A DNA stretch of 64,000 bases from Cyanobacterium aponinum PCC 10605 (GTDB taxonomy: Bacteria; Cyanobacteriota; Cyanobacteriia; Cyanobacteriales; Cyanobacteriaceae), in contig NC_019776.1 in NCBI RefSeq assembly GCF_000317675.1, positions 4,030,001 to 4,094,000 of the forward strand, read 5' to 3'. The translations under genes and the position numbers were made by a program. Numbering within the stretch: the first letter of the stretch is position 1; each line of letters starts with the position of its first letter. The notes beneath the pieces are model-generated. The model ran no database searches, was not told where the DNA came from, and worked only from the letters and a program-made list of their open reading frames with translations. Positions 5,793-25,459 of the stretch are shown piece by piece.

Positions 5793-6707
5793 ATGCAGAC
5801 TAATTTGGAGTTGAATCTTTTAGAAAAAGCTGTAACTCCTACTTTTGCCCGTCATGAGACTTTTCATCCCCGTTGGGGTTGGTTAAAGAAGGGTTTTGAT
5901 ATGGCTTCGATTGACGGTAAAATTTTTAATGGGGAAGATGCACCAGTTAAATTGGGAGTGGGGAAAAATATGGTGCGATCGCTCCGTTATTGGTGTTATA
6001 CTTTTAAGATTATTGATGAGGATAATACCCCCTCGGCTTTTGGTAATAATCTTTTAGGGGTGAATGGTTGGGATAGGTATTTAGAAAATCCAGCTTCTTT
6101 ATGGTTATTACACTGGAGTTTGCTTAAACCAACTTGTAATGCTGGTGCGTGGTATTATGTCTTTAATCTTTTCAATCAAAATGAGTTCACAAAAGAAGAT
6201 TTACTCAAAGGTTTGATGGATTATCTGCAGGGATTGAATAAAACTGTCGCTGAATCCTCCCTCGTTAAAGATATTAATTGTATTTTGAGAATGTATGTAG
6301 AATCAGACAATAACAATAGTAATTTTGTGGAAGATTCGATCGACTGTCCCTTTACTGAGTTAGGATTAATTTATCAGCCAAAAAATAGCAATTATTACCG
6401 TTTCCGCTTTGGTAGTAAGGCGAATTTACCATCAGCGATAATCGTAGCCACTTGTTTAGAATACGCTAGTTGGGTGAGTCAAAATCAATCCACTATTACC
6501 ATCTCTCGTTTACTTTATGACAAAGGAAGCCCCGGCACTGTATTCAAACTATCAGAAGAAGCTATTTATTCGGCGATTGAAGCAGTATGCCGTCAAGAAT
6601 CATCTTTATTTTTAGCGGATACGGCAGGTTTAGTGCAACTCTCCTTTGAGGAAAATCCCCTTGATTTAGCCTATCAAATTCTTAATAATTATTATGGTAG
6701 GATTTAA
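5793..6707 (+). CDS. sspB: DUF4007 protein, SspB-like (phosphorothioation system)
   Basis: A 304-residue protein of the DUF4007 type: the N-terminus reads FARHETFHPRWGWLKKGFDM, followed by LGVGKNMVRSLRYWC and later LLGVNGWDRYLENP and LWLLHWSLLKP. DUF4007 proteins occur in phage-defence islands, and to my knowledge SspB, the DNA-nicking partner of the SspABCD single-strand phosphorothioation machinery, belongs to this group. The gene opens a same-strand series containing an ATPase, a PP-loop enzyme, DptFGH-like genes and a cysteine desulfurase, which supports the SspB role. A toxin-antitoxin pair now separates it from the ATPase gene. The DUF call is firm; the nickase function is inferred. Confidence 0.8.
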   Translation: MQTNLELNLLEKAVTPTFARHETFHPRWGWLKKGFDMASIDGKIFNGEDAPVKLGVGKNMVRSLRYWCYTFKIIDEDNTPSAFGNNLLGVNGWDRYLENPASLWLLHWSLLKPTCNAGAWYYVFNLFNQNEFTKEDLLKGLMDYLQGLNKTVAESSLVKDINCILRMYVESDNNNSNFVEDSIDCPFTELGLIYQPKNSNYYRFRFGSKANLPSAIIVATCLEYASWVSQNQSTITISRLLYDKGSPGTVFKLSEEAIYSAIEAVCRQESSLFLADTAGLVQLSFEENPLDLAYQILNNYYGRI

Positions 6708-6859: not shown

Positions 6860-7036
6860 ATGAAAAAACAGAAGCTAATTAATGAAGCGATGAAAATTAC
6901 TGGCTTAAAAACCGAAGCAGAAGTAATTGAATTAAGTTTAAAAACCTTGATTAATTTAAAGAAACAAGAAGAAATTAAACACTTCAAAGGGAAATTAAAA
7001 TGGGAAGGAAATCTTGAAGAAATGAGGTTAGATTAA
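6860..7036 (+). CDS. VapB-type antitoxin (DUF2191-like)
   Basis: A 58-residue protein starting MKKQKLINEAMKITGLKTE and continuing with AEVIELSLKTLINLKKQEE, the short pattern of VapB/DUF2191 antitoxins that pair with PIN-domain RNases. Its stop codon overlaps the start of the PIN gene by one base (TAATG), as in translationally coupled toxin-antitoxin operons. It sits between sspB and sspC. The gene looks intact although its toxin is frameshifted. Confidence 0.8.
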   Translation: MKKQKLINEAMKITGLKTEAEVIELSLKTLINLKKQEEIKHFKGKLKWEGNLEEMRLD

Positions 7037-7426
7037 TGATTTTAGTTGATTCGGGTGTGTGGATTGATTATTTTAATGGTAATGATACAGATGAGGTTAA
7101 AAAATTAGATTTATATTTAGGCAATTATTCTATCGCTATAGGTGATATTATTTTAACTGAAGTATTACAAGGTTTTAAAAATGATCGAGATTATCAAACC
7201 GCAAAAATGTTGTTAACCTCTTTGAGAGTTTATTCTTTATTGGGGGTTAATTTGGCAATTATAAAGTGCAGAAAATTATCGATTTTTAAGAAAAAAGGGT
7301 ATTACAACTAGGAAAACTAACGATGTAATTATTGCCACTTTTTGCATTGAAAATAATATTGCCTTACTGTTTTCAGATAAAGATTTTAAGCCTTTTGTAA
7401 CTCACTTAAATTTAATTTCAGCTTGA
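7036..7426 (+). pseudogene. VapC-type PIN toxin, frameshifted
   Basis: The first frame gives 91 residues (MILVDSGVWIDYFNG, IILTEVLQGFKND) with the first PIN aspartate and the conserved Glu, then stops at 7309-7311. The rest of the family continues in another frame: AENYRFLRKKGITTR, NDVIIATFCIENNIALL and SDKDFKPF, ending at 7424-7426. Joining the frames near 7262-7272 (ATTATAAAG, apparently one extra base) gives about 129 residues, the normal VapC length. As it stands the C-terminal acidic residues are lost, so the toxin should be inactive. It overlaps its antitoxin gene by one base. Confidence 0.85.
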
Positions 7427-7448
7427 TATTTATTATTAAATTTATCCC

Positions 7449-10004
7449 ATGAATAATCCTAAATTAGCTAATTATTTTACCCTAGAAAGACGTTATACTC
7501 GCTCAATCAACTTAGAAAGAGATTTTGATGATCAAGAAGCATTAAAAGGCTATATTTTAACCGATAAAGCTATTGATGTTTTAGGGCGAATTTTACAGGG
7601 TTTAACTAAGGAAAGTAATAGTAATTGTTGGACTTTAACGGGAGTTTATGGTACTGGAAAATCGGCTTTTTGTCATTATTTAGGTTGTTTATTATCTCCT
7701 AAAAAGAGTAATATATATAAATCAAGTTTTTCTATTATTGAATCAATTTCCAAGGTCAATAATGAGTTAATTAAAGACTATGAGCAGTTAATAAATAATC
7801 TACCAAGACAAGGATTTATAAGGGCGATCGCAGTTAGTCAAAGAGAATCTATTACTAATACTATTATTCGGGCTTTATCCATAGGATTAAAAAATTTTAA
7901 ACTAAAAAATAATAGTCATTTTCAAGAACAATTAGAGAGTTTTAATGAATTAATAAAACAAGGGAAAAATGTTAAAAATAGTGCAATTATTTCCTTGATA
8001 AAAGAGATAATTAGTCAAGCTAAAACAGACTTAATTTTTATTATTGACGAGTTAGGAAAAAATTTAGAATATGCCGTTTACAATCAAGGTGCAGAAGATG
8101 TATATTTATTACAACAATTAGCGGAATTAGAGCCAATTAACGGCAATCGAGTCTATATTTTAGGGATTCTTCATCAAGCCTTTACCGAATATGGGCAAAG
8201 ATTAGGTAAAATACAACGCAATGAATGGGCAAAAATTCAAGGTAGGTTTGAGGATATTCCCTTTACTGAATCGGTAGCACAAATGATGCGGTTAATGGGG
8301 GAGGCGATTAATATTGGTAAAGAAATAAAAAATGTCGATGGAGATAGGCAAGAGGTAAGAGGCAAAAGGCAAGAGGGATTTTTTCAAGACTCAAGTTATA
8401 GTCTTTTTAATTACGATAGGATTGTAGATTATAGTCAACAATGGTTTGATAGTCTTTATCAGACTTTATCAGTAGAAAAAATTGATAAGTCAATCTTAGA
8501 AAATATTTACCCTTTGCATCCTCTGACAGCTTTGGTTTTACCAACTCTGTGTATGCGTTATGCTCAAAACGATCGCACCTTATTTACTTTTATCACATCT
8601 GATGAGCCTTTTTCCTTAAAAAATTTTCTCACAGAAACGGTTATATTGAGTGAGGGAATCAAAGATACTGGTGAAGGTAGGCAACAGGCAACAGGCAATA
8701 GGCAACAGGAATTTTTGAAAGACTCAAATTGTGATTTTGTTGAGTATAGCTTACCGACATTAAAACTTGATCGAGTCTATGATTATTTTATCGAATCAGC
8801 AGGAATGGGGTTAACATCGCGCCCCAATTTGCAAAGATGGATAGAAATTCACGACTTAATCGCCGATAGTAAAAGTTTGGATGAGGATAGTTTACGGGTA
8901 TTAAAAGTAATTGGTATCCTCAACTTGGTGACGATTACGGGAATAACAAAAGCAACTCGTCAACTGGTGGCTTATGGGTTATGTGATTTACCCCAAGAAG
9001 AAGAGGTTAACTATTGGCAGGAAAAAATAGATGGTTTATTAAAAGGGGGAATTATTACCTATCGCCGTCAGATAGATGAATTAAGAATTTGGCAAGGTTC
9101 GGATTTTAATGTCGATCAGGAGTTAGAATCTTATCAGGATTCAGAGAGTTTAGTGAAATTATTGTCAGAGTTACGCCCATTAAAACCAATGGTAGCTCAA
9201 AGACACAGTTATCAAACAGGTACTTTACGTTACTTTGAAAGACATTATCTTGATTCTTTCTCTCTGTTAGACAACAAGGGGTTTAAACCCCTTGTCAAAT
9301 GCGATAGCAATACCGCCGATGGTTATTTAGGTTATTGGTTAGATGACGACATCCCCTCCTCTTTCCCTTCATCTACCGTTGACGGATTACCAGTAATTAT
9401 TATTACCGCTAGTAATTTACCCATTTTACGATTACGGGTGAGGGAATTTTCGGCTTTAAATTGGTTGGATAAAACAGCGAAGGAATTACAGGCGGATGGA
9501 GTTGCCAGAAAAGAAGTGCGTTATCGCCTTGCAGAAGCGGAAAGATTTTTAGATGACACTTTAGCTAATGTGTTTGATGTGAGAGAAGAAAATAATCAAT
9601 GTTGGATTCAAGGGGAGTTAGTTAATATCTCTAGTATTAGTCAGCTAAATTTCCGAATTTCTCGTATTTGTGAGCAAGTATATCCTAAAAGCCCTATTTT
9701 GTGGAATGAATTGATAAATCGCCGTAATTTAACTGCACAAGGCATGATGGCTAGACGACAGTTAATCTCTGCTATGGTGAATAATTCTACCATGCCCAAG
9801 TTAGGATTAACGGGTTATGGGCCAGAAGTGACTATGTATTTTTCTCTTTTGCAAGAAACGGGGATTCATAGAATAAGTGAGGGATTAAAAGATATTGGTG
9901 AGGGTAGGCAACAGTTATTCTCTCTTAATACATCTTTAGTAAGCGGGGAAAATAAGACTTCTGAAGACAGCCAGATTACCCCCCCCCGACACACGTATTA
10001 CTAA
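7449..10004 (+). CDS. sspC: SspC-like P-loop ATPase, N-terminal part (interrupted)
   Basis: An 851-residue frame with Walker A GVYGTGKS at residues 65-72 and Walker B LIFIIDE (D200, E201), so an intact AAA-type ATPase core. By position between a DUF4007 gene and a PP-loop enzyme it corresponds to SspC, the ATPase partner of SspB and SspD. The frame ends in a run of nine C (9979-9987) with an aberrant tail PRHTYY. Removing one C joins it to the frame that continues to 11217, giving about 1255 residues. Repeat-derived peptides (DRQEVRGKRQE near residue 299, GEGRQQATGNRQQE near 405, GEGRQQ near the end) are inserted in frame. BREX/Pgl-type ATPases are an alternative, but no BREX partners are present. 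Confidence 0.7.
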   Translation: MNNPKLANYFTLERRYTRSINLERDFDDQEALKGYILTDKAIDVLGRILQGLTKESNSNCWTLTGVYGTGKSAFCHYLGCLLSPKKSNIYKSSFSIIESISKVNNELIKDYEQLINNLPRQGFIRAIAVSQRESITNTIIRALSIGLKNFKLKNNSHFQEQLESFNELIKQGKNVKNSAIISLIKEIISQAKTDLIFIIDELGKNLEYAVYNQGAEDVYLLQQLAELEPINGNRVYILGILHQAFTEYGQRLGKIQRNEWAKIQGRFEDIPFTESVAQMMRLMGEAINIGKEIKNVDGDRQEVRGKRQEGFFQDSSYSLFNYDRIVDYSQQWFDSLYQTLSVEKIDKSILENIYPLHPLTALVLPTLCMRYAQNDRTLFTFITSDEPFSLKNFLTETVILSEGIKDTGEGRQQATGNRQQEFLKDSNCDFVEYSLPTLKLDRVYDYFIESAGMGLTSRPNLQRWIEIHDLIADSKSLDEDSLRVLKVIGILNLVTITGITKATRQLVAYGLCDLPQEEEVNYWQEKIDGLLKGGIITYRRQIDELRIWQGSDFNVDQELESYQDSESLVKLLSELRPLKPMVAQRHSYQTGTLRYFERHYLDSFSLLDNKGFKPLVKCDSNTADGYLGYWLDDDIPSSFPSSTVDGLPVIIITASNLPILRLRVREFSALNWLDKTAKELQADGVARKEVRYRLAEAERFLDDTLANVFDVREENNQCWIQGELVNISSISQLNFRISRICEQVYPKSPILWNELINRRNLTAQGMMARRQLISAMVNNSTMPKLGLTGYGPEVTMYFSLLQETGIHRISEGLKDIGEGRQQLFSLNTSLVSGENKTSEDSQITPPRHTYY
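8335..8380 (+). repeat. In-frame GGCAARAGGC-type repeat inside sspC
   Basis: A segment with AGGCAAGAGGTAAGAGGC followed by AAAAGGCAAGAGG encodes DRQEVRGKRQE. The same low-complexity repeat is common between genes (for example 37106-37125 and 61819-61848). Related insertions occur at about 8676-8710 and 9901-9912 in the same gene, and the coding frame is kept at the first two. Confidence 0.75.
9274..9295. repeat. 22-bp perfect palindrome inside sspC
   Basis: ACAAGGGGTTT followed directly by its reverse complement AAACCCCTTGT forms a perfect 22-bp palindrome within the coding frame (peptide NKGFKPLVK). It looks like another small inserted element rather than protein-driven sequence. Confidence 0.8.
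9979..9987 (+). repeat. Poly-C tract (C9) at the sspC frameshift
   Basis: Nine consecutive C residues. The upstream frame reads ACC CCC CCC CGA and stops at 10002-10004. With eight C the frame reads GAC ACA CGT ATT ACT AAA and stays open to 11217. Homopolymer tracts of this length are classic slippage sites, so this is either a phase-variable switch, a site of transcriptional slippage or a sequencing error. Confidence 0.85.
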
Positions 10005-11217
10005 ATTAACAGAAAACAATGAAGAAGAATGGGGTTTTTATCCCCCTATAAGTAGGGATAATCCTAATGTAACGGATATTTGGAGTGCGATCGCATCTTT
10101 TTGCACATCAGCTACAGAAAAACCAGAAAACATCTCTAAGTTATATCAACTATTGTCAAAACCGCCTTATGGAGTGAAAGAGGGAATCATTCCCGTTATC
10201 CTTGCTTCTGTGTTGTTATATTATCGAGAAGAAGTAGGGGTTTACCAAGATGGTACTTTCGTACCAGTTTTAGGAGAAGAACATTTTGAGCTATTGGTTA
10301 AAAATCCTGAACGCTATGGAGTAAAATATTTTGCTATTGAGGGTTTGAGGGGAGAAATATTTAAGGAATTAGAAACAATTTTAAGCAACTCTCAACTTAA
10401 GGATAATTCCCAAGTGAGAAACGCAACCCTTTTAAGTGTGGTTACTCCTCTTTATCAATTTGTGAAGAAGTTACCCCGTTATACTCAACAAACCAAAAAT
10501 TTAAGTAAGACTGCTCTTCAGATTTTACATTCTTTACAGCAAACGGTTGAGCCTGATGAGTTACTTTTCTCTGCTTTACCTTCTGCCTGTGGTTTGTCTT
10601 CCATTTCTTTCACGTCTCCCCCCAGTCAAGAAGTTACCCAAATTTTTAAAACTACTTTAATCAAGGGTTTACGAGAAATTAATCAAGCCTACGATACTTT
10701 ACTCAATCACTGTCAATCCTTGTTAAATACCGCTTTTGGGGTAGAGGGGGATAAGTTAAGGGCAAATTTGCGTATTCGGGGTTACAATATCAAGGATAAA
10801 TGTGTTGAGCGCAGTTTGAAACGTTTTACTCAAGCCATTATTGATGACTCACAGAATGATAGTCAGTGGTTGTCGGCGGTTGTGATGGTGATTGCGGATA
10901 AACCTGCGGAATCCTGGAGTGATGAAGATGCGATCGCATTTGAGGTAAAATTAGCGGATATAGTGCGTAAATTTGAGAATTTAGAGGCTATCCAAACAGA
11001 AGTTAATAGTCAAGGTATTCAAGAGGGAGTAACTGCTAGAAGAATTACTGTCACCCGTGATGACGGGAAGGAAACTTTAAGGATGGTATGGATAGATGAC
11101 ACCAGAGAAAAAGAGGCGGAGGAGTTGGTTAATCAAATTCTAACTCAATTAAAAGGGTGCGATCGAAAACTCAGAGAAGCGGTATTAGCAAAACTCACCG
11201 AAAAAATCTTAAACTAG
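10005..11217 (+). CDS. sspC: SspC-like ATPase, C-terminal part (separate frame)
   Basis: This is the continuation of the gene at 7449 in the +1 frame. It is open from the poly-C tract with coding-quality sequence (TKLTENNEEEWGFYPPI, NVTDIWSAIASFC, then LSKPPYGVKEGIIPVIL). A TTG at 10153 could start a 354-residue product, but homology-like sequence begins well before it, so independent initiation is unlikely to give a natural N-terminus. Segments such as LRIRGYNIKDKCVERSLKRF and ITVTRDDGKETLRMVWIDD look like a regulatory or oligomerisation region. No catalytic motif is recognised. The frame ends about 220 bases before the next toxin-antitoxin pair. Confidence 0.65.
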
Positions 11218-12120: not shown

Positions 12121-13263
12121 ATGAATCACAATTATCACAATTTACCACTATCTAATCATCTAAATATATTAGCATTTTCTCAATTATTTCGGTCAACTAC
12201 TAATTCTTATAAATACCTTTTTTTTTACTCTATTTTAGATATTTTATCCCAGAGATTATTTGATGATTCAGAGTCAATTAGTTTCCAAGAACTGATGATA
12301 GAAATGTTAGCTAATGCTTGGTATCCTCATACCTTTTTTCGTTTATCTTTTGGAAAACAAGATAGAATTGCTAACAAGTTAGACTCCCTTGATTTGAGGG
12401 TAAATACTACCGTTTTAAAATTTAATAGTAGTGATAAAATAGCCTTGAAAGAAATTATTAGTCAAAACAATTTAACTGCTATTATTACTGATTTTAAAAA
12501 GAATGTACCCTTTCGATTATTACGCCCTTTTTTGTTAGAAAAATTACGAGATTTTGATGTTAACTATGAAGTAGTCAAAAAAACCCCAGAAATAGCCAGT
12601 CAATATTTTTCTATTCTTAAACCTTTATATCGTTTTAATGCTAATACTTATCAAGATTCAACGGCGATTCTTTTACATCCTGATTGGGTAGAATATTTCA
12701 AACAAAATTTTATAATTATTAAGGGTTGGGTAACTTGGGAATGGTTACAATATATGCAGAAAAATAATCAAAATGTACCTAATTTAGTTAATAAATTATT
12801 TGCCCCTGAGAAGAGAAACTCTTTAACTAACCAAGCTAATTATTGGAGGTTTATACTAGAAAAACAACCTATTAAGTGTATTTATTCTGGGCAAATTTTG
12901 AACAAAAATAGTATTTCTATTGACCATTATTTACCCTGGTCATTTGTTGCTCATGATCATCTCTGGAATTTAATACCAACTATGAATAATATTAATAGTT
13001 CTAAATCAAATAATATACCATCTTCTCAATATTTGGCCAAATTTATTCAATTACAACATCAAGGCTTAACTATTTCTCATCAATATTTACCTCGAAAAGA
13101 CTGGTTAAAATACACGGAAAATTATCTGCTAGATCTAAAAATTAGTCATACAGAAGATTTACTAAATTTTGAGTTATTAACTAATATTTATAAACGTCAT
13201 TTTCAGCCTTTGATTTCTATTGCAAAGATATATGGCTTTAATGATAATTGGACTTATTCTTAA
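12121..13263 (+). CDS. HNH endonuclease-domain protein within the Ssp locus
   Basis: A 380-residue protein. The C-terminal half carries an HNH-type motif: CIYSGQILNKNSISIDHYLP, then HDHLWNLIPTMNNINSSKSN, with the D-H pair, central N and final N in the expected order. The N-terminal 200 residues (FSQLFRSTTNSYKYLFFYSI, MLANAWYPHTFFRLSFGKQD) are a separate all-alpha-looking domain I cannot name. It lies between the second toxin-antitoxin pair and the PP-loop gene, on the same strand as the sulfur genes. It may be an accessory restriction nuclease of the system or simply cargo; the SspE effector (DUF262 plus HNH) is not present. Confidence 0.8.
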   Translation: MNHNYHNLPLSNHLNILAFSQLFRSTTNSYKYLFFYSILDILSQRLFDDSESISFQELMIEMLANAWYPHTFFRLSFGKQDRIANKLDSLDLRVNTTVLKFNSSDKIALKEIISQNNLTAIITDFKKNVPFRLLRPFLLEKLRDFDVNYEVVKKTPEIASQYFSILKPLYRFNANTYQDSTAILLHPDWVEYFKQNFIIIKGWVTWEWLQYMQKNNQNVPNLVNKLFAPEKRNSLTNQANYWRFILEKQPIKCIYSGQILNKNSISIDHYLPWSFVAHDHLWNLIPTMNNINSSKSNNIPSSQYLAKFIQLQHQGLTISHQYLPRKDWLKYTENYLLDLKISHTEDLLNFELLTNIYKRHFQPLISIAKIYGFNDNWTYS

Positions 13264-13461: not shown

Positions 13462-14262
13462 ATGACTGAGAAAAAAGTCAGACACGTTTTAGGATTAAGC
13501 GGTGGCAAGGATTCTACCGCCTTAGCAGTTTTGCTACATAAAGAAGTACCTGAGATGGAGTATTTTTTTTGTGATACGCATAAGGAACTACAGGAAACCT
13601 ACGATTATCTCGATCGCATTCAAGCCCGTTTAGGCATTAAAATACATTATCTTAGCGAAAATAGGGGTTTTGATCATTGGTTGGCGATTCATGATGGTTT
13701 ATTGCCTTCTGTGCAGATGCGTTGGTGTACGGTTAAAATGAAGATTAAGCCTTTTGAGGAGTTTGTCGGTGATGATGAGGCTATCAGCTATATTGGCATT
13801 CGTGCCGATGAGAATAGGGAGGGTTATATCTCTACAAAACCGAATATTAAACCCGTTTTTCCCTTCAAAGAGAGAGGTTTAGTTAAAGCTGATATTCTCC
13901 GACTTTTAGAGGAAAGTGGTATTGGTTTACCTGAATATTATAAATGGCGTAGTCGCTCTGGTTGTTTTTTCTGTTTCTTTCAGCGTAAATACGAATGGGT
14001 GATGTTGGCACAAAATCATCCTGATTTGTTTGCAAAAGCCGTGGAATACGAGTCTAATCATCAAGATGGGCGTACCTATACATGGAATCAGGGAGAAACC
14101 TTACTAGAGTTATTAGAGCGTAAAGATGAAATTATAGCAAATCATGAAAAGGCGATCGCACGAGAGCAGAAAAAAGCACCGAATCGCCCTCTAGCAGAGG
14201 CTTTAGAGTCTGTGTTGGATGATGATGATTCAACTTTGCCTTGTTTAGTTTGTAATTTATAA
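13462..14262 (+). CDS. sspD: PAPS-reductase-like PP-loop enzyme, SspD/DndC-like
   Basis: A 266-residue ATP-pyrophosphatase of the phosphoadenosine-phosphosulfate reductase fold. The PP-loop LSGGKDS is at residues 12-18, followed by YFFCDTHKELQETYDYLD. RWCTVKMKIKPFEEFVG carries the Cys typical of sulfur transferases, and SGCFFCFFQRKYEW has a CxxC near residue 175. In DNA phosphorothioation it would adenylate the DNA backbone for sulfur insertion, taking sulfur from the cysteine desulfurase. It is 15 bases upstream of the sspF-like gene and probably co-transcribed with it. It is shorter than canonical DndC (about 500 residues), which argues for SspD. Confidence 0.85.
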   Translation: MTEKKVRHVLGLSGGKDSTALAVLLHKEVPEMEYFFCDTHKELQETYDYLDRIQARLGIKIHYLSENRGFDHWLAIHDGLLPSVQMRWCTVKMKIKPFEEFVGDDEAISYIGIRADENREGYISTKPNIKPVFPFKERGLVKADILRLLEESGIGLPEYYKWRSRSGCFFCFFQRKYEWVMLAQNHPDLFAKAVEYESNHQDGRTYTWNQGETLLELLERKDEIIANHEKAIAREQKKAPNRPLAEALESVLDDDDSTLPCLVCNL

Positions 14263-14277
14263 ATAAAGAAAAATTTT

Positions 14278-16167
14278 ATGGTTGTTTCACAAATAGAATC
14301 TAATTTAGAACGAACTTTTCATAAATCAAAATGGGTTGATTTCTTAAGACAGTATGGACCAATCCCTCGAAATGACAACATGTATGATGAAGTAATTCAG
14401 CGTAATTTAAAAACGAAAAAAATTGAGCCAATTATTTTTGAAACCGAATATCTTGATGAATTAATTAACAACTTTAAATCAACTTCTCCAAAATCAGTAA
14501 TTCTAACAGGCACTGCGGGAGACGGCAAAACATTTTGTTGTAGAGAAGTTTGGGAAGCACTAGGTGGTGCGAGAGAAATTTGGGAACAAGATATAACAAT
14601 TCGTCAATTAAACTTAGATAATCATAAATTGTATATTGTTAAGGATTTAAGTGAATTAAATAATGAAGATAAAATTAGAATACTGACTTTAATGGCAGAT
14701 TCAATTATTAATTTTTCATCTGATCAAATATATTTAATTGCCGCTAATGATGGACAATTAATTGAAGCATGGGAACAAGCAGAAAATACAGATAATGTAA
14801 TCAAAGTTCGCAAAATAATTGAAGAGTTATTGGTTAATGATCAACAAGAAGATTTGAATTATAATCTACGTTTTTACAATTTAAGTCGTTTAAATACAGC
14901 TAGAATGTTTACGAAAATTTTAGATGCTGTTATTAATCATTCTGGATGGCAAGAATGTCAAAAATGCTATTATCATAATCCTCCAAATTTAAATGAAAAA
15001 TGTCCTATTTGGGAAAACAAAAAAAGACTAGAAGAAAAACATTGGAATAATATCTTGCGAGAAAGAATCATTGATTTATTACAATTAGTAGAATTAAATG
15101 GAATACACCTGCCTATTAGACAATTACTATTACTAATATCTAATATGTTATTAGGTCATCCAGAGGGAAAAGATAAGTTACTCAACTGTAAAATAGTACC
15201 TTTTATTGTTGATAATGATAAAAGTTATTTATCCAGTATTTATCATAATATTTTCGGTTTTAATTTATCCGAACGTAAAATAAATTCGATAGAAGTATTT
15301 AAAGTTTTAAATAGTTTTGGTATTGGTAAAGAAACAAGTAATCAAATAGATAATATTCTTATTTTTGGAAAGGATGATCCAGAAATTTCTCATTATTATC
15401 ATAAATTTTTGAAAAATGATTCCTTTTATGGAACTTCAAAAAATTTTATAATAGGACAAAAAAGTTATTTAGAAGGAGACTTAATAGAAGAAAAAAATAA
15501 CTTTTTAAAAATACTTATTTCTCAGAGACAAAGGCTATTTTTTATTATTGCTAAAGATGAAGAAGAAAACTTGAATTTTTGGAATTTAACTATTTTTCAA
15601 TTTGCTGGAGAATATCTTAATAAAGTTTATAAAAAGTTAAAAAATAACGAAAAAGTTTCTCAAAATATTATTGGACGTTTAGCAAAAGGAATTAATAGAA
15701 TTTTTACGGGAATGCTAGTCAATAATTTTAACGAAATAATTATAGCTACATCAGGAAGTTATTCTCAAGCTAAAATAAGCCAAGTTTATGAGGAATCTAT
15801 CCCCGTAAGAAAAAATAGAGGTGAAGAAGTAACTATTGAGTTAGAAGAAAATCATAATATACCAACTTTAATTGTTTATTTATCGGTAATTCAAAATGAT
15901 ATTTATCCAATCAAATTAACGTTAAATTTAGCTAGATATGAATATTTAAGTAGGGTGGCTGAGGGGACTTTACCTAGTAGCTTTTCTCAAGAATATTATG
16001 AGGATATATTAGCTTTTAAAACTCAAATTTTACAAAAAGTTAAACTACGAAAAAAATGGGAAGGAGAAGAATTAGAAACAGATAATTCTCTTTTAATTAA
16101 TTTATTAGAAATGAAAGATGATGGTAAAGCCCATCCTATTAATATGGAGGTTATGATATGTCGATAA
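14278..16167 (+). CDS. sspF: DptF/SspF-like P-loop protein
   Basis: A 629-residue protein with Walker A GTAGDGKT at residues 78-85 and an ATPase-like segment KLYIVKDLSELNNEDK. A cysteine cluster (ECQKCYYHN, NEKCPIWEN) near residues 228-246 could bind a metal. Size, motif and position directly after the PP-loop gene match DptF, the first gene of the restriction half of phosphorothioation systems, or its SspF counterpart. It overlaps the next gene by 10 bases. SspFGH is reported to damage unmodified DNA and block phage replication; the role here is by analogy. Confidence 0.75.
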   Translation: MVVSQIESNLERTFHKSKWVDFLRQYGPIPRNDNMYDEVIQRNLKTKKIEPIIFETEYLDELINNFKSTSPKSVILTGTAGDGKTFCCREVWEALGGAREIWEQDITIRQLNLDNHKLYIVKDLSELNNEDKIRILTLMADSIINFSSDQIYLIAANDGQLIEAWEQAENTDNVIKVRKIIEELLVNDQQEDLNYNLRFYNLSRLNTARMFTKILDAVINHSGWQECQKCYYHNPPNLNEKCPIWENKKRLEEKHWNNILRERIIDLLQLVELNGIHLPIRQLLLLISNMLLGHPEGKDKLLNCKIVPFIVDNDKSYLSSIYHNIFGFNLSERKINSIEVFKVLNSFGIGKETSNQIDNILIFGKDDPEISHYYHKFLKNDSFYGTSKNFIIGQKSYLEGDLIEEKNNFLKILISQRQRLFFIIAKDEEENLNFWNLTIFQFAGEYLNKVYKKLKNNEKVSQNIIGRLAKGINRIFTGMLVNNFNEIIIATSGSYSQAKISQVYEESIPVRKNRGEEVTIELEENHNIPTLIVYLSVIQNDIYPIKLTLNLARYEYLSRVAEGTLPSSFSQEYYEDILAFKTQILQKVKLRKKWEGEELETDNSLLINLLEMKDDGKAHPINMEVMICR

Positions 16168-17867
16168 AAATTTTACCTCGTCCTGATAAAAAACAGTTAG
16201 AACAATTCAAAATGTGGGTTGATGAAGCAATATGGGGACATCGACTTTATGATGAACAAACTCCTTGTTTGACTTTATTAGAATTTTTCGGGATTCTTCA
16301 ATCTCAGTTAGAGTCGAATCAAGCTTTTCAAGAATCAGATCAGCAAAGAAATAAATTAAAATACTACTATTATCCACGTCTTTATATTCGTAATATTTTA
16401 TTCAATAATCCTCATTTAGAAACGATCGCCTCTAACCCCATATTCAATGATAAAGAACGTTGGCAAGAATGGGAAAAAATAATAAAAGAAACAGCCGGGG
16501 GAATTGAAAATCCTGATTTTAGTTATTTACAAGAAAGATTCTCCTGTTTTTCTGATTTTGTCAGAATAGTTAATTTTTTTCAGGCAAATGCTATTGAAGG
16601 AGATAGTAATAAACGCTGGACTTCTAAATTTGTATTTCCGTATGGTCCAGACTCTTTATTTCCAGATCTTAGAGTGCAAGTAACAAAAGAAAAAACTAAC
16701 GTATCTGTAGATAGACGTTTTTTCGGACGAACAGGAGAATTATTATATTTAATGTTATGTCGTAGTCATAAAGGAAAAGAACTTTTGACGGGACTGAAAA
16801 AGTTAGGAATAATTGCAGATTCAGAAGATAAAACACATCTTTCTAAATGGAATCATCTGATAAAAGCACTTCAAAATAAAGAAGATATAGAAAAGCATAA
16901 AGAAAGCGGTTCTCCTCCTTATCTTCCCTATTTACAACTACCTGAATATGAAGCTCTCGCAGATGATTGGTTAACAATTTTAAAATATGATTTACCTGAC
17001 TACGATGCTATTCCTCATTTAGTTACTTTAACCGGACTTCATTTAATTATTTATCTTTTAACTAGGGCAAAAACAGTATTAGAAATTAAACAGATTTTTG
17101 AATTAAATAATGATTTTTTTCCGGATCAATCTACAAAATTAGATAATGAAAATCCTGAAAATATAGACATTAACTTTGATATAAATAAAAATTTTAAACT
17201 TAATCATCCTGTTACCTTTATCTTAGAAATAGTAGCTCCTAAAAAAACTGTTGTTCGAGATTTAGCTTCAGCTTCTTTTTTAGAAAATAATAATTTATCA
17301 ATCACTGCTGTAGAAACTTATGTTCATAGCGTTAAAAATTCCGATGAGTGGCAAAAATATATTACTTCTAATAATGATTATGAAGGTGCTAAAGAATTTT
17401 TAGAAAATAAATTTCAAACATCGATTAATACCAATAAAGGTATCAGTATTAAATCTCAAATTCCCGATGAAATGCTTGAAGAATTTTGCGAAGAAGCTGT
17501 TAATCAACATAAGCAACACGTTGCTAATTGTCATCGAGTTTGGGGCAAAGAGATTGGTTTTATTTCTAGCCGTAGTAGTCGTAGAAATCGATATGCTCCT
17601 AATGATGCTTTTCTCAAAACTTTAGTTTTAGCAAATGTAGAACATCGTTTAGAATTTCAACAATTTTTAACTAAGTTATATGAAAAATATGGATTTATTA
17701 TTGGAGATAAACAAGCTAAAAAATTTATTGAAAATGGAGAAGCTGATCAAGAAGCGTTTGCCTCTAATGCTGAACGTCTGGAACAACGTTTATCAAGTTT
17801 AGGCTTATTAAAAAGACTTAGTGATGCTTGTGCTTATGTTCAAAATCCTTTTGCAGTAAATTTGTGA
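16158..17867 (+). CDS. sspG: DptG/SspG-like protein
   Basis: A 569-residue protein without an obvious catalytic motif, starting MSIKILPRPDKKQLEQF. It overlaps the sspF-like gene by 10 bases and precedes the very large ATPase, the exact place of DptG/SspG in phosphorothioation-linked restriction operons. Visible segments include WTSKFVFPYGPDSLFPDL and KEIGFISSRSSRRNRYAPND near the C-terminus, a family-like basic stretch. I assign it by gene order and neighbours rather than by a motif. It would form a complex with the F and H proteins. Confidence 0.65.
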   Translation: MSIKILPRPDKKQLEQFKMWVDEAIWGHRLYDEQTPCLTLLEFFGILQSQLESNQAFQESDQQRNKLKYYYYPRLYIRNILFNNPHLETIASNPIFNDKERWQEWEKIIKETAGGIENPDFSYLQERFSCFSDFVRIVNFFQANAIEGDSNKRWTSKFVFPYGPDSLFPDLRVQVTKEKTNVSVDRRFFGRTGELLYLMLCRSHKGKELLTGLKKLGIIADSEDKTHLSKWNHLIKALQNKEDIEKHKESGSPPYLPYLQLPEYEALADDWLTILKYDLPDYDAIPHLVTLTGLHLIIYLLTRAKTVLEIKQIFELNNDFFPDQSTKLDNENPENIDINFDINKNFKLNHPVTFILEIVAPKKTVVRDLASASFLENNNLSITAVETYVHSVKNSDEWQKYITSNNDYEGAKEFLENKFQTSINTNKGISIKSQIPDEMLEEFCEEAVNQHKQHVANCHRVWGKEIGFISSRSSRRNRYAPNDAFLKTLVLANVEHRLEFQQFLTKLYEKYGFIIGDKQAKKFIENGEADQEAFASNAERLEQRLSSLGLLKRLSDACAYVQNPFAVNL

Positions 17868-17983: not shown

Positions 17984-20900
17984 ATGAAAACATCAGAATT
18001 AATTGGAAAAGTTACTAATCAATTTTTAAAAAATTTTCTCCGAGAAGAAGAACAATCAGATGGGATTGCTCGTTTTTTATTGGATCGTTTAACATCAGAG
18101 CAAGTTGCTGAAATTTGCCGTGAAATACTGGCAGATCCTTATTCATCTACTCAAGTAGAAATCAAAATTCCAGAAACTTTAGTTGCTGATTTCTCTTTAC
18201 CCCCAGAAATTATGACGAATGAAAGAACAGTTCATTTACGTCATGCTACTTGTGAAAAACCAGTTTTACTATTGGCGAACACTAACGATGATCAAGGTCA
18301 ATCATTGCAAGATATTACTCGTATTGGTGCAATTGAATTAAAAGCTGAAAGTAATATTTGGACAGATGTAATTAGTCGTGATTTACCTATCTCTGAGACT
18401 CATTTAAAACACTTGGAAAAGGCTTTAAAAGGATTACAAAAAGCTATAAATTTAAGTTTAGAACAATTTGCAAAATATATAGCAGATACTCATTATCGAA
18501 TTAGCCAAGAAAGTGAACCGTTAATTAATGCTTTAGGATGGGCGTTACCAGCACTAAAAATTCCTCGTGATTCTAATTATTTTGAAGCAATTCCTGAAAA
18601 AAATAGAGGACAGGCTAAATACTGGGAAAATTTATTTAAACAAGGTATTTCTAAGCGTGGTTGTTTTTTATTAAAACAAACATCTACATCTAAATCCATT
18701 GAAAAAAATGATTTACAAAATGCTTTTGAAAAAGTCAAAGATCAAATTCCGATTTCCGCTCATCAAATAATTGAGGAATTTATTAACAGTCCTTCAGAAT
18801 GGGATGAAAAAAGTTTCGCCCTTGCTCAATGGGAATGGGAAAAAGATAATATTGATTCTTTATTTAATGGACTAAAAAAACAAAAAACGGATTTAGCTTC
18901 TTTGACAATACAATTTTTTGAAGATGAATATCCTGATGTTTTAACAGAAGCTGATGAAGATTATTTAAAAGCATTAAAAAAACGTTCTCAAACAAAAAAC
19001 CCTAATGAAAGTGATGTAGAATTTTATGAAAATTATCGTCAAGAACTAGAAAAAAATCGTCAATTAAAATCTAAATGGGATAAATTTGTTTATGGGCAAC
19101 CAGTAGAGTGTACTGATTTTTTAGTTGGTTTAATTCAAGCCTTTGAAAGATTATTTTGTCAATCAGAAATAAAAAGTAAACAGGAAAAATTAATTATTAC
19201 TACTCAATATGGAAAAACAAAAAGTAAATGGTTAGGAATAAATACAGAGGTAGGATTATATTTTTGCACAAAATATCGGGGTATAGAACAATTGACAACC
19301 CCTAATATTATTTGGGAAACCGGTTGGTTATTTAACTATGATCAATTAATTGAAGAAACTAAACAAAAAGGTAAATATAAAGAAAATCAATCAATCGCTA
19401 AAACTGCGATAGAAATAAAGTTTTATGTCGAACTGGAATCTAATATTTCTGCAGGTAAGCCTAAAATTCAATTAATTTGGAAAGCGAATCCTAACGCTAT
19501 TGGCATGGAATTAAGAAATGATTTAGAAAGATTAGGAGATGATAATAAATCGGCTTTTATTTTATCAGAAATTAGACAAGAATTAGTCAATAAAAAAGGT
19601 CGTTTACAAGGTATTTCTCTTTATGATATGGGGACAATAATGGCGGCTTTTGGACAAGATAGAGGTTCTTTAATTCCTAAATATCACACTAAATATGATT
19701 TAGCAAAAAACTTTATCAAAGAATTAAAAAAAGCCATTAAAGAAAATAGATTATCCTCAGATTCAGGCGACAAAATTAAACAAGCATGGGAACTTTTTAG
19801 TCAAACTTATAAACAAGCATTAAAACAATTAATTACACAAGAAGGTTTTGCTAGTCCTTTACTATTAGAACAGGCTTATAAATATCAACAATTATTGGAA
19901 ATATTATTAAAATATGCAAAAGGAGATCAGAATAGAATAAATCTTTATCAACCTTTATTAAGGTTAGGTTCTATTACTGTTACTGGTAAAAATCCTGCGG
20001 TAATTGTTGCTCCTTGGCATCCTCTTAGGTTAGGTGCGATCGCCGTAAAATTCCGTCAAGTATCAGGTTTATTAAAGTATATTTTAGATAATGAACAAGT
20101 CCAATTTGGTGATTCTCGTCTTTTCTTTGCAGATATAATCAAAGAATTAAATCATCCTTATTACCCAGAAGTGGCTATTGGTTATAAAGGTTCACAACCG
20201 GTGTTACTAAATCTTACGGATACCGCTAACGATTATAGTTTATTAGAACAGCCTATATGGGAAACAAAAAACCAAACAACGAATGAAGATCCTTTAGAAG
20301 CAGCGACAAAATTAGTTAAATTAGTGCAAAGATATGTAGAATTATTACCCCATGAAAAAACAAATCTTACCCTAATTCTTTATCAATGCGACTCTATTAA
20401 ACTACCATTAGCAGTAATTAATCAATTAGCTAAATTACAAGAAGATCAAGAAGAATACCGTTGTCATGTAATTCTTCGACATCAGGAATCAAAAAAACTA
20501 AATCGCCTGTATGAACAAATGATTGAAAATACAGACGCAGATCCTGATGCTTTTATTGCCAGTGAGGTTTCACAAGATTTTATGGCTAAACTTCGTATTA
20601 GTGTCACCTCTGATTCTATTCCTGTTCAAAGTCAAAAAGAAGGAAAGTATGCAGACATAGTATTTTTACAAGATGTAATTTCTCGACAAGCAGAAATTGT
20701 CTGGGAATCTTCTCCTGACGAACAAATAACTGATGAGTTACTCTATCATGTTCCTCCTCGGTGGTCTCGAAAACGTCCTGCGGCTAAAGATGAATTAAAA
20801 TCTACAGTATATTTAGTTAGCCCTAATCAGCCCGAAGTAGGTAAAATTTATCTAAACATGATTTATAGCATTATCAAGGCTAAAGATTTAGGGAGTAATG

Positions 20901-23431
20901 AATATTTCCTTCCGGCAAGACAAATATCTTTTCAAAATAACACTACTCAGACAATTTTTGCAGATATTCATCGGTTAGGGGAATGGGTGGTAAATTATGA
21001 TGATTTATTAGATCGGAGACAGTTACTTAATCAGGGAGTTCAAGTCATTCGTTATCAACAACATCGCACAGATGAACGTAATTTTTTAGTGTCTTCTCAG
21101 GCTTCCTTAAATTTATTACAAGTATTAGTCAAACGCCGTTTAGAATCATTAAATTTAGAACTTAGTGAGGAAGAATTAAAATCACTATCTCAACGGTTGA
21201 TTGATGATGCTAATGGAATCTCAGGAGATATTGTTTTAAGGGCGGCTAAATGTGGTATTTTTGCTAGTGAACTTATCGGGGTTGTTTTAAGTAAAGCCTT
21301 GATTCGTTCTCAATTACCTCAAAATGAACCAATAGGATGGTATTTTTTAGATGATTATGCTAATTGGCTTGGACAAAAGGAAGGATCGATCGCTGATATT
21401 TTAGTTATTTCTCCTCAAATAATCAATGGTCAACCTATCTTAAAATTAATTATTTCGGAAGCTAAATATGTTAAAGCCAATGGAGTTAGTGAAGCAAGAA
21501 AAACATCACAAAAACAACTTAGAGAAACCGTAGAAAGAATTAGTAGTGCATTATTTATTAATCCTAGTCGATTGGACAGAGATTTATGGTTATCTCGTTT
21601 AGGTGATTTGTTACTTGAGGGAATAGAATTTAGTCCTAATGCAGAAATTTCTCTGGAAAAATGGCGAGATAGCATTCGTTTTGGTAGAGTACAAATTGAT
21701 TTATTAGGTTACTCTCACGTTTTTGCTTCCAGTTCTAGTGACAATGACAGTCATGAACAAATTATTATTCCTAAAGTAAACAATTGTTTTCAGGAAGTTT
21801 TTAATCATGATGATGTCCGTCAATTAATTCTGGCATATCAGCGTGGAGAATCATTTTTAAATATCAGAGAAAAATTGGGAGATGAAAAGCCTTGGTTTGT
21901 ATCGAGTCCTCAATTTCCAGCCCCTCGAATTATTTGGGTAAATCATTTTTCTCAAGAATTTCATAAAGATAATTTTTCAAATAGCATAAATAATACTGAC
22001 TATCAAATAGAAACAAAAGATGAAAATAGTTTAAGTGAAAATAATAGTTATTCTTCAGAATTACAAAAAAACACATATTCAAAAAATAATAATTCTTTCT
22101 CCCATCAAATTGACGATAATCTTATTAAAGAAAATAATAATATCACTTTAACTAAAACATCAAATAATAATGAAATTAAGGAAATTTATCCTAATCAAAT
22201 TGACAAACAAATTAATAAACAGGTCATTGATTTAGCGTCATCTAATAGTAATTGGAGAAAACCAAACTTAAACAATTGGTTAAATCAAAATCAAAAATCT
22301 CAAACTTTGAATAACGAAGAACAAGAATGGTTAAATCAAGTAGTTAATTCTCTCCGTCAAGCCTTATTAAGTTATGATTTACAAGCCAAAGTTTTAGAAC
22401 AAAGGTTAACTCCTAATGCCGCATTAATTCAATTTCAAGGCTCAGATCGTCTTAATATTTCTGATATTGAACGTCGTCGCTCTCAATTACTTACTACTCA
22501 TGGTTTAAATGTTATTAACGTTTCTGCACAACCTAGTAAAATTGTTGTAGAGATCGCCCGTCCTCAAAGACAGATTATTTCTTTACAAGAAGTTTGGCAA
22601 AAAAGAAAAATCAATTATAAATATCCTCAAGTTAATTTAAGTTTAATTATTGGAGTTAAAGAAATTGATGGGGAAATACTTTATCTCAATCTAGCCAGTG
22701 AATTTGAAAACTTACAACATCATGCACCACACACTCTAATTGCTGGAACAACTGGAAGTGGAAAGTCGGTTTTGTTAAGGAATTTATTAGTGGATGTTTG
22801 TGCAACTAATTCCCCTAAATTTTTGCATATTTATCTGATTGATGCTAAACAAGGTACAGATTATTTTCCCTTAGAAAACTTACCACATTTACAACAAGGA
22901 CTTATTGTTGAACAGAATCATGCGATCGAGGTTTTTGAAGAAATAGTATCAGAAATGGAAAAAAGATATGTTCTTTTTAGACAAGAAAAAGTTAATAATT
23001 TATTTGCTTATAACCAAAAAGTAATAAAAGAAAAACAATTACCAGTTTTATTAGTTGTCCATGATGAATTTGCTGATTGGATGTTAGTAGATGAATATAA
23101 AGATGCTGTTTCGAGTGCTGTGCAACGTCTAGGAGTAAAAGCAAGGGCTGCGGGAATTCATCTAATTTTTGCAGCACAACGTCCCGATAATCAGGTATTT
23201 CCAATGCAATTACGAGATAATTTAGGTAATCGTTTAATTTTAAGAGTTGAAAGTCAAGGAACTTCTGAATTTTCTTTAGGACAAAAAGGAGCAGAAAATT
23301 TATTAGGAAAAGGACATCTAGTTGGTAGATTATCAGGAGAAATGGATTTAATTTATGCTCAAGTTCCTTTTTTATCAGAAGATGATTTTGCCATTGTTTG
23401 TGAAACGATTGCTAAAGATTGTGAGGTCTAA
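17984..23431 (+). CDS. sspH: DptH/SspH-like giant FtsK/HerA-type ATPase with nuclease-like motif
   Basis: An 1815-residue protein. The C-terminal third is a FtsK/HerA-type motor: Walker A GTTGSGKS at 1588-1595, Walker B VLLVVHDEF (D1694, E1695) and LIFAAQRPDNQVFP. A candidate PD-(D/E)XK core occurs at D1138 (SIADILVI) and E1159-x-K1161 (LIISEAKYVK). Residues about 1330-1435 form an Asn/Ser/Lys-rich low-complexity linker between the two. The N-terminal 1100 residues lack a motif I recognise. Length, motor domain and position match DptH/SspH. A 116-base AT-rich gap separates it from the sspG-like gene, and the desulfurase fragment starts three bases after its stop. Confidence 0.82.
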   Translation: MKTSELIGKVTNQFLKNFLREEEQSDGIARFLLDRLTSEQVAEICREILADPYSSTQVEIKIPETLVADFSLPPEIMTNERTVHLRHATCEKPVLLLANTNDDQGQSLQDITRIGAIELKAESNIWTDVISRDLPISETHLKHLEKALKGLQKAINLSLEQFAKYIADTHYRISQESEPLINALGWALPALKIPRDSNYFEAIPEKNRGQAKYWENLFKQGISKRGCFLLKQTSTSKSIEKNDLQNAFEKVKDQIPISAHQIIEEFINSPSEWDEKSFALAQWEWEKDNIDSLFNGLKKQKTDLASLTIQFFEDEYPDVLTEADEDYLKALKKRSQTKNPNESDVEFYENYRQELEKNRQLKSKWDKFVYGQPVECTDFLVGLIQAFERLFCQSEIKSKQEKLIITTQYGKTKSKWLGINTEVGLYFCTKYRGIEQLTTPNIIWETGWLFNYDQLIEETKQKGKYKENQSIAKTAIEIKFYVELESNISAGKPKIQLIWKANPNAIGMELRNDLERLGDDNKSAFILSEIRQELVNKKGRLQGISLYDMGTIMAAFGQDRGSLIPKYHTKYDLAKNFIKELKKAIKENRLSSDSGDKIKQAWELFSQTYKQALKQLITQEGFASPLLLEQAYKYQQLLEILLKYAKGDQNRINLYQPLLRLGSITVTGKNPAVIVAPWHPLRLGAIAVKFRQVSGLLKYILDNEQVQFGDSRLFFADIIKELNHPYYPEVAIGYKGSQPVLLNLTDTANDYSLLEQPIWETKNQTTNEDPLEAATKLVKLVQRYVELLPHEKTNLTLILYQCDSIKLPLAVINQLAKLQEDQEEYRCHVILRHQESKKLNRLYEQMIENTDADPDAFIASEVSQDFMAKLRISVTSDSIPVQSQKEGKYADIVFLQDVISRQAEIVWESSPDEQITDELLYHVPPRWSRKRPAAKDELKSTVYLVSPNQPEVGKIYLNMIYSIIKAKDLGSNEYFLPARQISFQNNTTQTIFADIHRLGEWVVNYDDLLDRRQLLNQGVQVIRYQQHRTDERNFLVSSQASLNLLQVLVKRRLESLNLELSEEELKSLSQRLIDDANGISGDIVLRAAKCGIFASELIGVVLSKALIRSQLPQNEPIGWYFLDDYANWLGQKEGSIADILVISPQIINGQPILKLIISEAKYVKANGVSEARKTSQKQLRETVERISSALFINPSRLDRDLWLSRLGDLLLEGIEFSPNAEISLEKWRDSIRFGRVQIDLLGYSHVFASSSSDNDSHEQIIIPKVNNCFQEVFNHDDVRQLILAYQRGESFLNIREKLGDEKPWFVSSPQFPAPRIIWVNHFSQEFHKDNFSNSINNTDYQIETKDENSLSENNSYSSELQKNTYSKNNNSFSHQIDDNLIKENNNITLTKTSNNNEIKEIYPNQIDKQINKQVIDLASSNSNWRKPNLNNWLNQNQKSQTLNNEEQEWLNQVVNSLRQALLSYDLQAKVLEQRLTPNAALIQFQGSDRLNISDIERRRSQLLTTHGLNVINVSAQPSKIVVEIARPQRQIISLQEVWQKRKINYKYPQVNLSLIIGVKEIDGEILYLNLASEFENLQHHAPHTLIAGTTGSGKSVLLRNLLVDVCATNSPKFLHIYLIDAKQGTDYFPLENLPHLQQGLIVEQNHAIEVFEEIVSEMEKRYVLFRQEKVNNLFAYNQKVIKEKQLPVLLVVHDEFADWMLVDEYKDAVSSAVQRLGVKARAAGIHLIFAAQRPDNQVFPMQLRDNLGNRLILRVESQGTSEFSLGQKGAENLLGKGHLVGRLSGEMDLIYAQVPFLSEDDFAIVCETIAKDCEV

Positions 23432-23434
23432 AAA

Positions 23435-23668
23435 ATGACGTTTTCCAATACGATATTATCTGAATCTATCTACCTAGATTATCACGCTACTACCCCCGTC
23501 GATCGACGTGTTGCGGAAAAAGTGTATGATTATATGGTGAATAACTTTGGCAACAGTAGCAGTATAGATCATATTTTTGACAATCAAGCCACTAAAAAAA
23601 TTAAGCAATCTTTAGTTAATTTCATTTTTCATCTTAATTTCTTGTTAAGAAAAAATAATTGTTTGTAA
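23435..23668 (+). pseudogene. 5' fragment of a cysteine desulfurase gene
   Basis: The frame begins MTFSNTILSES and then matches the intact desulfurase at 24293 over about 45 residues (IYLDYHATTPVDRRVA, KVYDYMVNNFGNSSSIDHIF), degenerating after ATKKIKQSLVNF. Pyridoxal lysine and catalytic cysteine regions are absent, so it cannot be an enzyme. It starts 3 bases after the sspH-like stop, where a functional sspA/dndA gene would be expected. A PIN toxin-antitoxin pair on the other strand follows at once, overlapping its 3' end by 24 bases. It is a diverged duplicate of the 5' end of the next gene, not an identical copy. Confidence 0.85.
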
Positions 23669-24040
23669 ATCCCTTACTTTTTTAATAGTTTCAAAGTCTT
23701 TATCATTATGAATTAAAATTAAATTATAACTGATAGCTAGTTGAGCAATGCAACAATCAATGGTACTTCTAACTGTTAAACCCTTACGTCTTAAATCATA
23801 GAAAATACGAGCAGATTTAATCAATATAGAACTATTTTCTGTCAGATAATCTTGATCATCCAAATAAATTTCCAATAGTTGCCATTCTTTTTCATCTTTA
23901 GCACCCTGTAATAATTCCATTTGGATAAAATGACTCAAAAAGAAAGGATTATCTTGAATAATATTTTCTAAATTTTTTCTTTTAATTCCCGTTTTATCTC
24001 GAAAAATATTAACCAAAACAGAAGTATCAATTAGATACAT
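23645..24040 (-). CDS. VapC-type PIN-domain toxin
   Basis: A 131-residue PIN RNase: MYLIDTSVLVNIFRD (first Asp), FIQMELLQGAKDEKEW (conserved Glu), then RSTIDCCIAQLAISYNLILI and HNDKDFETI with the remaining acidic residues, so it looks complete. It is encoded after, and overlaps by 14 bases, its antitoxin. It is the third toxin-antitoxin pair in the sulfur locus and the only one on the opposite strand, lying between two copies of the desulfurase 5' end. Confidence 0.9.
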   Translation of the reverse strand: MYLIDTSVLVNIFRDKTGIKRKNLENIIQDNPFFLSHFIQMELLQGAKDEKEWQLLEIYLDDQDYLTENSSILIKSARIFYDLRRKGLTVRSTIDCCIAQLAISYNLILIHNDKDFETIKKVRDLQTIIFS

Positions 24041-24239
24041 TTTTGTTATTTCTTAACTCCTTATAATTATAGTCTTCTCTAAATTCAATTTTTCCACTTA
24101 AATCTAATAAATTCAGTTTTTTTCGACTACGAATTAACTCTTTTAAAGCCATATTTACTAATTCTTTTTTTGTTCTCACATTAGTTAAACGGAAGGCTTC
24201 CTCTAGTAAACTATCATCAAGATCAATATTTGTTCTCAT
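24027..24239 (-). CDS. VapB-type antitoxin (DUF2191)
   Basis: A 70-residue antitoxin, MRTNIDLDDSLLEEAFRLTN followed by KKELVNMALKELIRSRKKLN, the standard DUF2191/VapB pattern of a beta strand plus a ribbon-helix-helix-like part. I chose ATG at 24239 because this is the universal start of the family; the frame extends to 24272 without homology-like sequence. It overlaps the toxin gene by 14 bases. Its promoter must lie in the 53 bases before the divergent desulfurase gene. Confidence 0.88.
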   Translation of the reverse strand: MRTNIDLDDSLLEEAFRLTNVRTKKELVNMALKELIRSRKKLNLLDLSGKIEFREDYNYKELRNNKNVSN

Positions 24240-24292
24240 TTTCTTGTGTAAAATGTGTAAATACAGAAACATTATACACTCAATAATTTTTA

Positions 24293-25459
24293 ATGTCTAA
24301 TCCCATCTACCTAGATTATCACTCCACAACCCCCGTCGATCGCCGTGTTGCCCAAAAAGTGTATGATTATATGGTGCATAATTTTGGCAATAGTAGCAGT
24401 ATAGATCATATTTTTGGCGATCGCACCCAAGAAGCCATCAAAAAAGCAAAACGACAGATAGCTGATTTAATTAATTCATCTCCCCAAGAAATTATTTTCA
24501 CATCAGGCACAACAGAAAGCATTAACCTAGTGATTCAAGGTTTACAACCATCTCGCATTATCATTTCACCAGTAGAGCATAAAGCGGTTATTGATACCTG
24601 TCAAGCAATGGCAAAGAAGGGATTAGCCGAAATTATCTGGTTAAAGGTGGATAAAAAAGCTCGAATTGACTTCAATCATCTGGAAAAAGTATGTAGTCAG
24701 GGGGCGGATTTACTGTGTATCATGGGTGCGAATAATGAGGTTGGGAATATCTATCCCATTGAAGAAATCGGTAAAATCGCTCAAAAATATCATATACCCT
24801 TTCTTTGCGATGGTTCTCAGGCGGTGGGCAAAATTCCCGTTAATTTTGAAGATTGGGGTATCACTTTTTTAACTATCTCTGGTCATAAATTATACGCCCC
24901 AAAGGGTATCGGTGCATTAGTTATCAGAAAAGGTTATCGTTTACAACCCCTCATTTATGGCGGTGGACATCAAAACGGCATTAGATCAGGTACATTAAAT
25001 GTATCAGGGATAGTGGGATTGGGAGAGGCTTGTTATTTACGACAGTTAGAAATGCAAGAAGATGAAAGCGCGATCGCTCTTAAACGAAATCATCTACAAT
25101 CATTATTACAAAGTAAAATCCCTCAATTAGTCGTCAACGGAGACACAGAAAATCGACTAGCGGGGAATCTACATATATCTATTCCTAATGTGCCAAATAG
25201 TGCCATTATTGCTCGAATCAGGCATCAATTAGCCATTTCTACTGGCTCGGCTTGTAGTAGTGCCACCGTTTCCCCTTCTCACGTTTTAAGAGCGATGAAT
25301 TTATCTGATGATTTAATCGAAGGTGCGTTGAGAATCGGAGTAGGAAAATTCACTAGGGATATAGAAATAGAAAAAAGCGCAGACATTATAACCAATGCCG
25401 TCGAAAAAATTTTCCAGTTAACAAGCATCTATGATGCGGATAAATTTACTCGCATTTAA
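24293..25459 (+). CDS. sspA: Cysteine desulfurase, SspA/DndA-like
   Basis: A 388-residue class V aminotransferase-fold enzyme that takes sulfur from L-cysteine as a persulfide. YLDYHSTTPVDRRV begins the fold, SGTTESINLV and VEHKAVIDTC follow, the pyridoxal lysine is K199 in SGHKLYAPKG, and the catalytic cysteine is C321 in STGSACSSATVSP. In phosphorothioation systems this enzyme charges the PP-loop protein with sulfur. It lies downstream of the sspH-like gene, but a truncated copy and a toxin-antitoxin pair now separate them, so it probably has its own promoter. A housekeeping IscS/NifS role cannot be excluded from sequence alone. Confidence 0.9.
   Translation: MSNPIYLDYHSTTPVDRRVAQKVYDYMVHNFGNSSSIDHIFGDRTQEAIKKAKRQIADLINSSPQEIIFTSGTTESINLVIQGLQPSRIIISPVEHKAVIDTCQAMAKKGLAEIIWLKVDKKARIDFNHLEKVCSQGADLLCIMGANNEVGNIYPIEEIGKIAQKYHIPFLCDGSQAVGKIPVNFEDWGITFLTISGHKLYAPKGIGALVIRKGYRLQPLIYGGGHQNGIRSGTLNVSGIVGLGEACYLRQLEMQEDESAIALKRNHLQSLLQSKIPQLVVNGDTENRLAGNLHISIPNVPNSAIIARIRHQLAISTGSACSSATVSPSHVLRAMNLSDDLIEGALRIGVGKFTRDIEIEKSADIITNAVEKIFQLTSIYDADKFTRI

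Follow-up and report, generated by a model that had tools for sequence, protein, structure and literature searches.

A poly-C tract at the frame break of sspC as a candidate phase-variation site in a cyanobacterial DNA phosphorothioation cluster

The window, i.e., the whole analysed stretch of 64,000 nucleotides of the Cyanobacterium aponinum PCC 10605 genome, contains a cluster of ssp genes, in which sspC is broken into two frames (Table 1). Both sspC pieces match PADLOC SspC models, in agreement with the earlier note, which had called the gene sspC-like, and the neighbouring genes match sspB, sspD, sspF, sspG, sspH, and sspA. According to PADLOC, sspB, sspC (in two frames), sspD, and a cysteine desulfurase gene lie in one cluster, and full-length matches to sspF, sspG, and sspH are located beside sspBCD. 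The same gene set (sspBCD, cysteine desulfurase, and sspFGH) constitutes the SspABCD–SspFGH system of Vibrio anguillarum FF-93, for which the excerpted text of PMC8092258 describes no tract or phase variation. A further mark of this defence system is single-stranded phosphorothioation of DNA (CpsCA). Unlike that of FF-93, the cluster described here includes an HNH gene and toxin–antitoxin-like ORFs, and its sspC is out of frame.

Several minor features of the cluster can be noted. The HNH gene product shows weak similarity to Cas9 HNH domains. An ORF encoding a PIN-domain (VapC-like) protein at 7036–7440, just 5' of sspC, has an apparent continuation in another frame and may be broken too. A short copy of the start of the cysteine desulfurase gene (23435–23668) is followed by an opposite-strand vapBC-like pair, the whole arrangement occupying 23435–24272, and then by the full gene, which begins at 24293. 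The output of a promoter and terminator scan was at about chance level.

Table 1. Features of the ssp cluster and of the sspC frame break (positions are those of the window)
Feature	Position	Strand	Basis or remark
sspB (DUF4007)	5793..6707	+	
sspC upstream frame, 851 aa: predicted AAA+ ATPase part, first wHTH, alpha+beta region, start of second wHTH	7449..10004	+	PADLOC SspC; Anabaena homologue model; BrxC architecture (PMC12839542)
AGGCAAG heptamer array within sspC, in frame	8346..8376	+	
AGGCAAC heptamer array within sspC, in frame	8679..8709	+	
Linker with the tract, lineage-specific	9873..10020	+	148 nt here, 97–312 nt in relatives
C9 homopolymer, sspC frame break	9979..9987	+	orthologous C8/C9 in five relatives
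sspC downstream frame, 409 aa, C-terminal half, out of frame	9988..11217	+	85% identical to in-frame G008 copy; PADLOC SspC for 10153–11217
HNH endonuclease gene	12121..13263	+	between sspC and sspD in 5/6 loci (here and four relatives)
sspD (PAPS-reductase-like)	13462..14262	+	
sspF, full length vs. its model	14278..16167	+	PADLOC
sspG, full length vs. its model	16158..17867	+	PADLOC
sspH (FtsK/HerA-like), full length	17984..23431	+	PADLOC; absent from other searched family members
Cysteine desulfurase, sspA/dndA-like	24293..25459	+	PADLOC

The frame of sspC changes exactly at the run of nine C, as the earlier note had claimed. The upstream frame extends from the ATG at 7449 to the TAA at 10002–10004. 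From the tract onwards, the downstream frame contains no further lesion and stays open as far as the stop at 11217. Removal of one C gives 3768 nt, i.e., 1255 aa and a stop codon, which is the size of about 1255 residues proposed in the note for eight C. The note had also described coding-quality sequence on both sides of a lesion confined to the tract; the second part of this statement holds, but the flanking sequence is a fast-evolving lineage-specific linker rather than conserved coding sequence. Translation of the second half could start at the TTG at 10153 at the earliest, 55 codons beyond the tract. Within sspC, the gain or loss of a single unit in either of the two heptamer arrays would be another cause of a frame shift.

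No other C or G run in the 64 kb window reaches seven bases, against 47 such runs of A and 29 of T. Across the 4.18 Mb genome, eight separate C or G runs of at least nine bases were found. C8 8-mers are rare (0.0035–0.019 per kb per strand). In the window, CCC accounts for 24.5% of proline codons and ACC for 20% of threonine codons; thus, an uninterrupted C run is not a mere result of codon preference. A search for the tract motif in this genome gave one match only, and its origin from a dispersed repeat was rejected for this reason. A search of the same genome for a second intact sspC likewise gave a single match, with no further copy.

The comparison set comprised 100 related genomes and the family of the host, with one genome per species. 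Six sspC copies with both halves, belonging to three genera, were found in the family; two of them are plasmid-borne (pGM3709_04 of Geminocystis sp. NIES-3709 and pCHL69-2 of Cyanobacterium sp. HL-69). An uninterrupted C8 or C9 is present at the orthologous site in all six, while the surrounding linker is largely unalignable. The copies of the genome under study (G000) and of the relatives G003 and G005 have C9, read as CCC-CGA or CCC-CTA, and are out of frame; those of G008 and G011 have C8 and are in frame. The G009 copy has C8 and is nevertheless out of frame, via a one-nucleotide difference upstream of the tract. As relatives have both lengths at the same site, the suggestion of the earlier note that slippage at the tract may act as a switch is plausible. 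Each of the six upstream halves forms a single open frame. Outside the family, a single frame spans the gene in 40 of the 41 sspC copies with full-length downstream halves, against two of the six inside it (Fisher value 0.0004, a guide only, as relatedness is ignored). Since the family members are related and each species is represented by one genome, the six copies cannot be counted as independent events. Scanning of genome contigs revealed no further family members, and viral contigs yielded no extra sspC alleles.

Other disturbances of the gene were also observed. In its downstream half, the sspC of Nostoc sp. XA010 changes frame close to an A8 run (L048:11110–11570). The G001 genome, from the same genus as the host, contains only an sspC remnant without sspD (L072, about 9850–10284, reverse strand). 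In G009, sspB–sspC and sspD are on separate contigs (C2 and C17), which indicates that the cluster is split or rearranged.

The tract-bearing linker evolves fast and is otherwise hard to align between the relatives. Among the linkers checked in other families, nearly every copy has either none or a very short one, and one long linker has no long C run. In the AlphaFold model of the Anabaena sp. 4-3 homologue, the linker site is located between two strands, after three helices; this position fits the wing of a second winged helix, with a mean pLDDT of 73.9 for the model and low confidence (about 40–75) in the linker region. SspC has been called homologous to the BrxC/PglY ATPases of BREX, including type 4, and the BrxC order of ATPase, wHTH, alpha+beta, wHTH, and C-terminal coiled coil is consistent with the predicted model of the SspC homologue; phase variation or frameshift is unmentioned in that paper (PMC12839542). 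No sequence match to solved structures was found for either sspC half.

The G005 copy is of mosaic composition, with 89% identity to the genome under study in the upstream half and 65% in the downstream half; the latter is 77% identical to the G003/G011/G009 group. The DNA identity of this copy falls across the linker, which therefore also serves as a joint between exchangeable halves. For pairs of an off and an on copy, the dN/dS values of the downstream half are 0.157 (G000–G008), 0.109 (G003–G011), and 0.059 (G009–G011), and those of the upstream half are 0.207, 0.143, and 0.134, respectively. Across genera, dS is about 1.2–2.3, which means nearly saturated synonymous sites. Purifying selection on the downstream half is no weaker than on the upstream half, off copies included. 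The out-of-frame state must therefore be recent or reversible, or block translation incompletely.

The sspC gene thus combines a simple repeat whose unit change alters the frame (C9 at the frame break), repeats of differing length and state at the orthologous position in relatives (C8/C9 in six copies), and an otherwise intact reading frame under purifying selection. Judging from these comparisons of sequences, sspC, which encodes the ATPase of the SspABCD DNA-phosphorothioation module, probably carries a contingency (phase-variation) tract in the form of the poly-C run. By replication slippage, the run would alternate between C8 and C9 and so toggle the sspC frame: C8 would give one full-length SspC, and C9 a product of about 850 aa ending inside the second winged-helix domain. 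This short product would keep the first part of the protein, lose the C-terminal half, and presumably be unable to support modification. Cells may flip between the two states within one culture, and mixed populations might hedge phage protection against the burden of the system. In the sequenced genome, the tract is in the C9 (off) state; the off state of G009 is not a matter of tract length alone. If phase variation does occur here, phosphorothioate marks would vary from cell to cell within one culture of these strains, annotations as two "hypothetical proteins" would conceal one switchable gene, and how modification loss can occur without self-damage would become testable in a natural setting.

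Similar switches are known in other defence systems. In Streptomyces coelicolor, the Pgl system is switched by a pglX tract of eight or seven G (PMC4365076), and a brxX tract was reported for BREX (PMC6326788). As in the case of sspC, the Pgl homopolymer of 7–8 bases is located in a gene of modification-based phage defence; a change in its length switches the system, and toxicity is tied to the balance of the components (PMC4365076). The Pgl tract lies in the methyltransferase PglX and affects methylation, whereas the tract described here lies in an ATPase gene of phosphorothioation; in addition, Pgl switching was measured (PMC4365076), whereas that of sspC is proposed from sequence comparison. 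Phase-variable type I and III methyltransferases (phasevarions, PMC12707154) likewise represent slipped-strand switching of a DNA-modification gene, but the modification here is backbone sulfur introduced by another enzyme class, and any regulatory role would be hypothetical here. In a full-text literature search of open-licence papers, no report of phase variation in phosphorothioation systems was found, and one query on phase-variable homopolymers in cyanobacteria yielded incidental matches only.

The effector genes next to sspC differ between the relatives. Among the family members searched, SspH is found in this genome only. The ssp genes of G008 adjoin genes of a DndB-like protein and BrxL; those of G005 adjoin genes of a DndB-annotated protein and PbeA-like, MzaB-like, and phospholipase-D-like proteins; in G003, there is a protein comparable in size and start, and in G011, an SspB-like protein and a 1566-aa protein. 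Since out-of-frame copies adjoin differing effector modules, the tract is associated with the modification module and its ATPase. A toxic-versus-safe balance, one of the ideas that the earlier note had raised in view of SspFGH, is therefore not supported as an SspFGH-specific reason for the tract, as the other family members have no SspH.

Wang et al. observed impaired growth and DNA damage in E. coli when SspFGH was present in the absence of modification (PMC8092258). Since SspFGH is intact here, a fully off state should be costly. Within the family, the presumed danger of modification loss applies to this genome only and would need a putative escape, perhaps leaky frameshifting; possible answers to how this genome tolerates C9 are a leak, silent SspFGH, or a working short SspC. 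A more inclusive reading is rather doubtful as a whole: a phosphorothioation ATPase would be phase-variable via poly-C in a hypervariable wing insertion, the tract would be kept across genera despite differing effectors and an exchanged C-terminal half, and the off state would be survivable beside SspFGH through a slight leak of full-length protein.

A less likely explanation than phase variation, though one deserving attention, is a mutational hotspot without a selected switch, in which an accidental weak C run in a tolerant linker has led to repeated loss of the system, e.g., in phage-free culture. Four of the six family copies are off, which would also be consistent with repeated loss in culture, and the same-genus G001 retains an sspC remnant only. 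Homopolymer runs are, moreover, able to renew themselves by slippage. However, the uninterrupted run persists across genera in which synonymous sites are near saturation, and there is no relaxed selection on the downstream half.

Leaky or programmed recoding is improbable. According to it, the C9 copies would yield some full-length SspC via +1 ribosomal slippage on CCC-C or via RNA polymerase slippage, the tract setting a level rather than an on/off state. CCC-C is a +1-prone site, with slippage of up to 1% in E. coli when it is the second codon that is affected (PMC4519876), and it occurs in the reading of all C9 copies; recoding would also explain both the tolerance of SspFGH in this genome and the selection maintained on both halves. 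Nevertheless, a conserved recoding site should hold one frame relation, whereas two copies are in frame unaided, three are shifted by +1, and one has another offset.

The assembly of SspC from two separately made polypeptides is very unlikely: the G009 upstream stop does overlap a downstream ATG (TAATG), and annotations of the NIES-3709 and HL-69 copies show two genes that adjoin or overlap each other, but the earliest usable start of the second half in this window lies 55 codons beyond the tract, and the gene is fused in nearly all copies outside the family. It is just as hard to credit a wrong count of a C8 tract, even though homopolymers are a classic error class, as nine C were found at the site in three separate assemblies, in which about 20 of the 22 other C9/G9 runs are in frame (nearly all in G003 and G005, and in G000 those within genes such as the hisF-like and ffh-like ones), against none of the three in sspC.

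Two other runs can be mentioned in their own right. In G003, a nine-base run (G003:C1:2461226–2461234, L101) is located a few codons from the end of a 505-aa frame and may be either a second switch or a natural end. A C11 run is flanked by CRISPR-like repeats at the end of the chromosome contig (L008:1501–1511).
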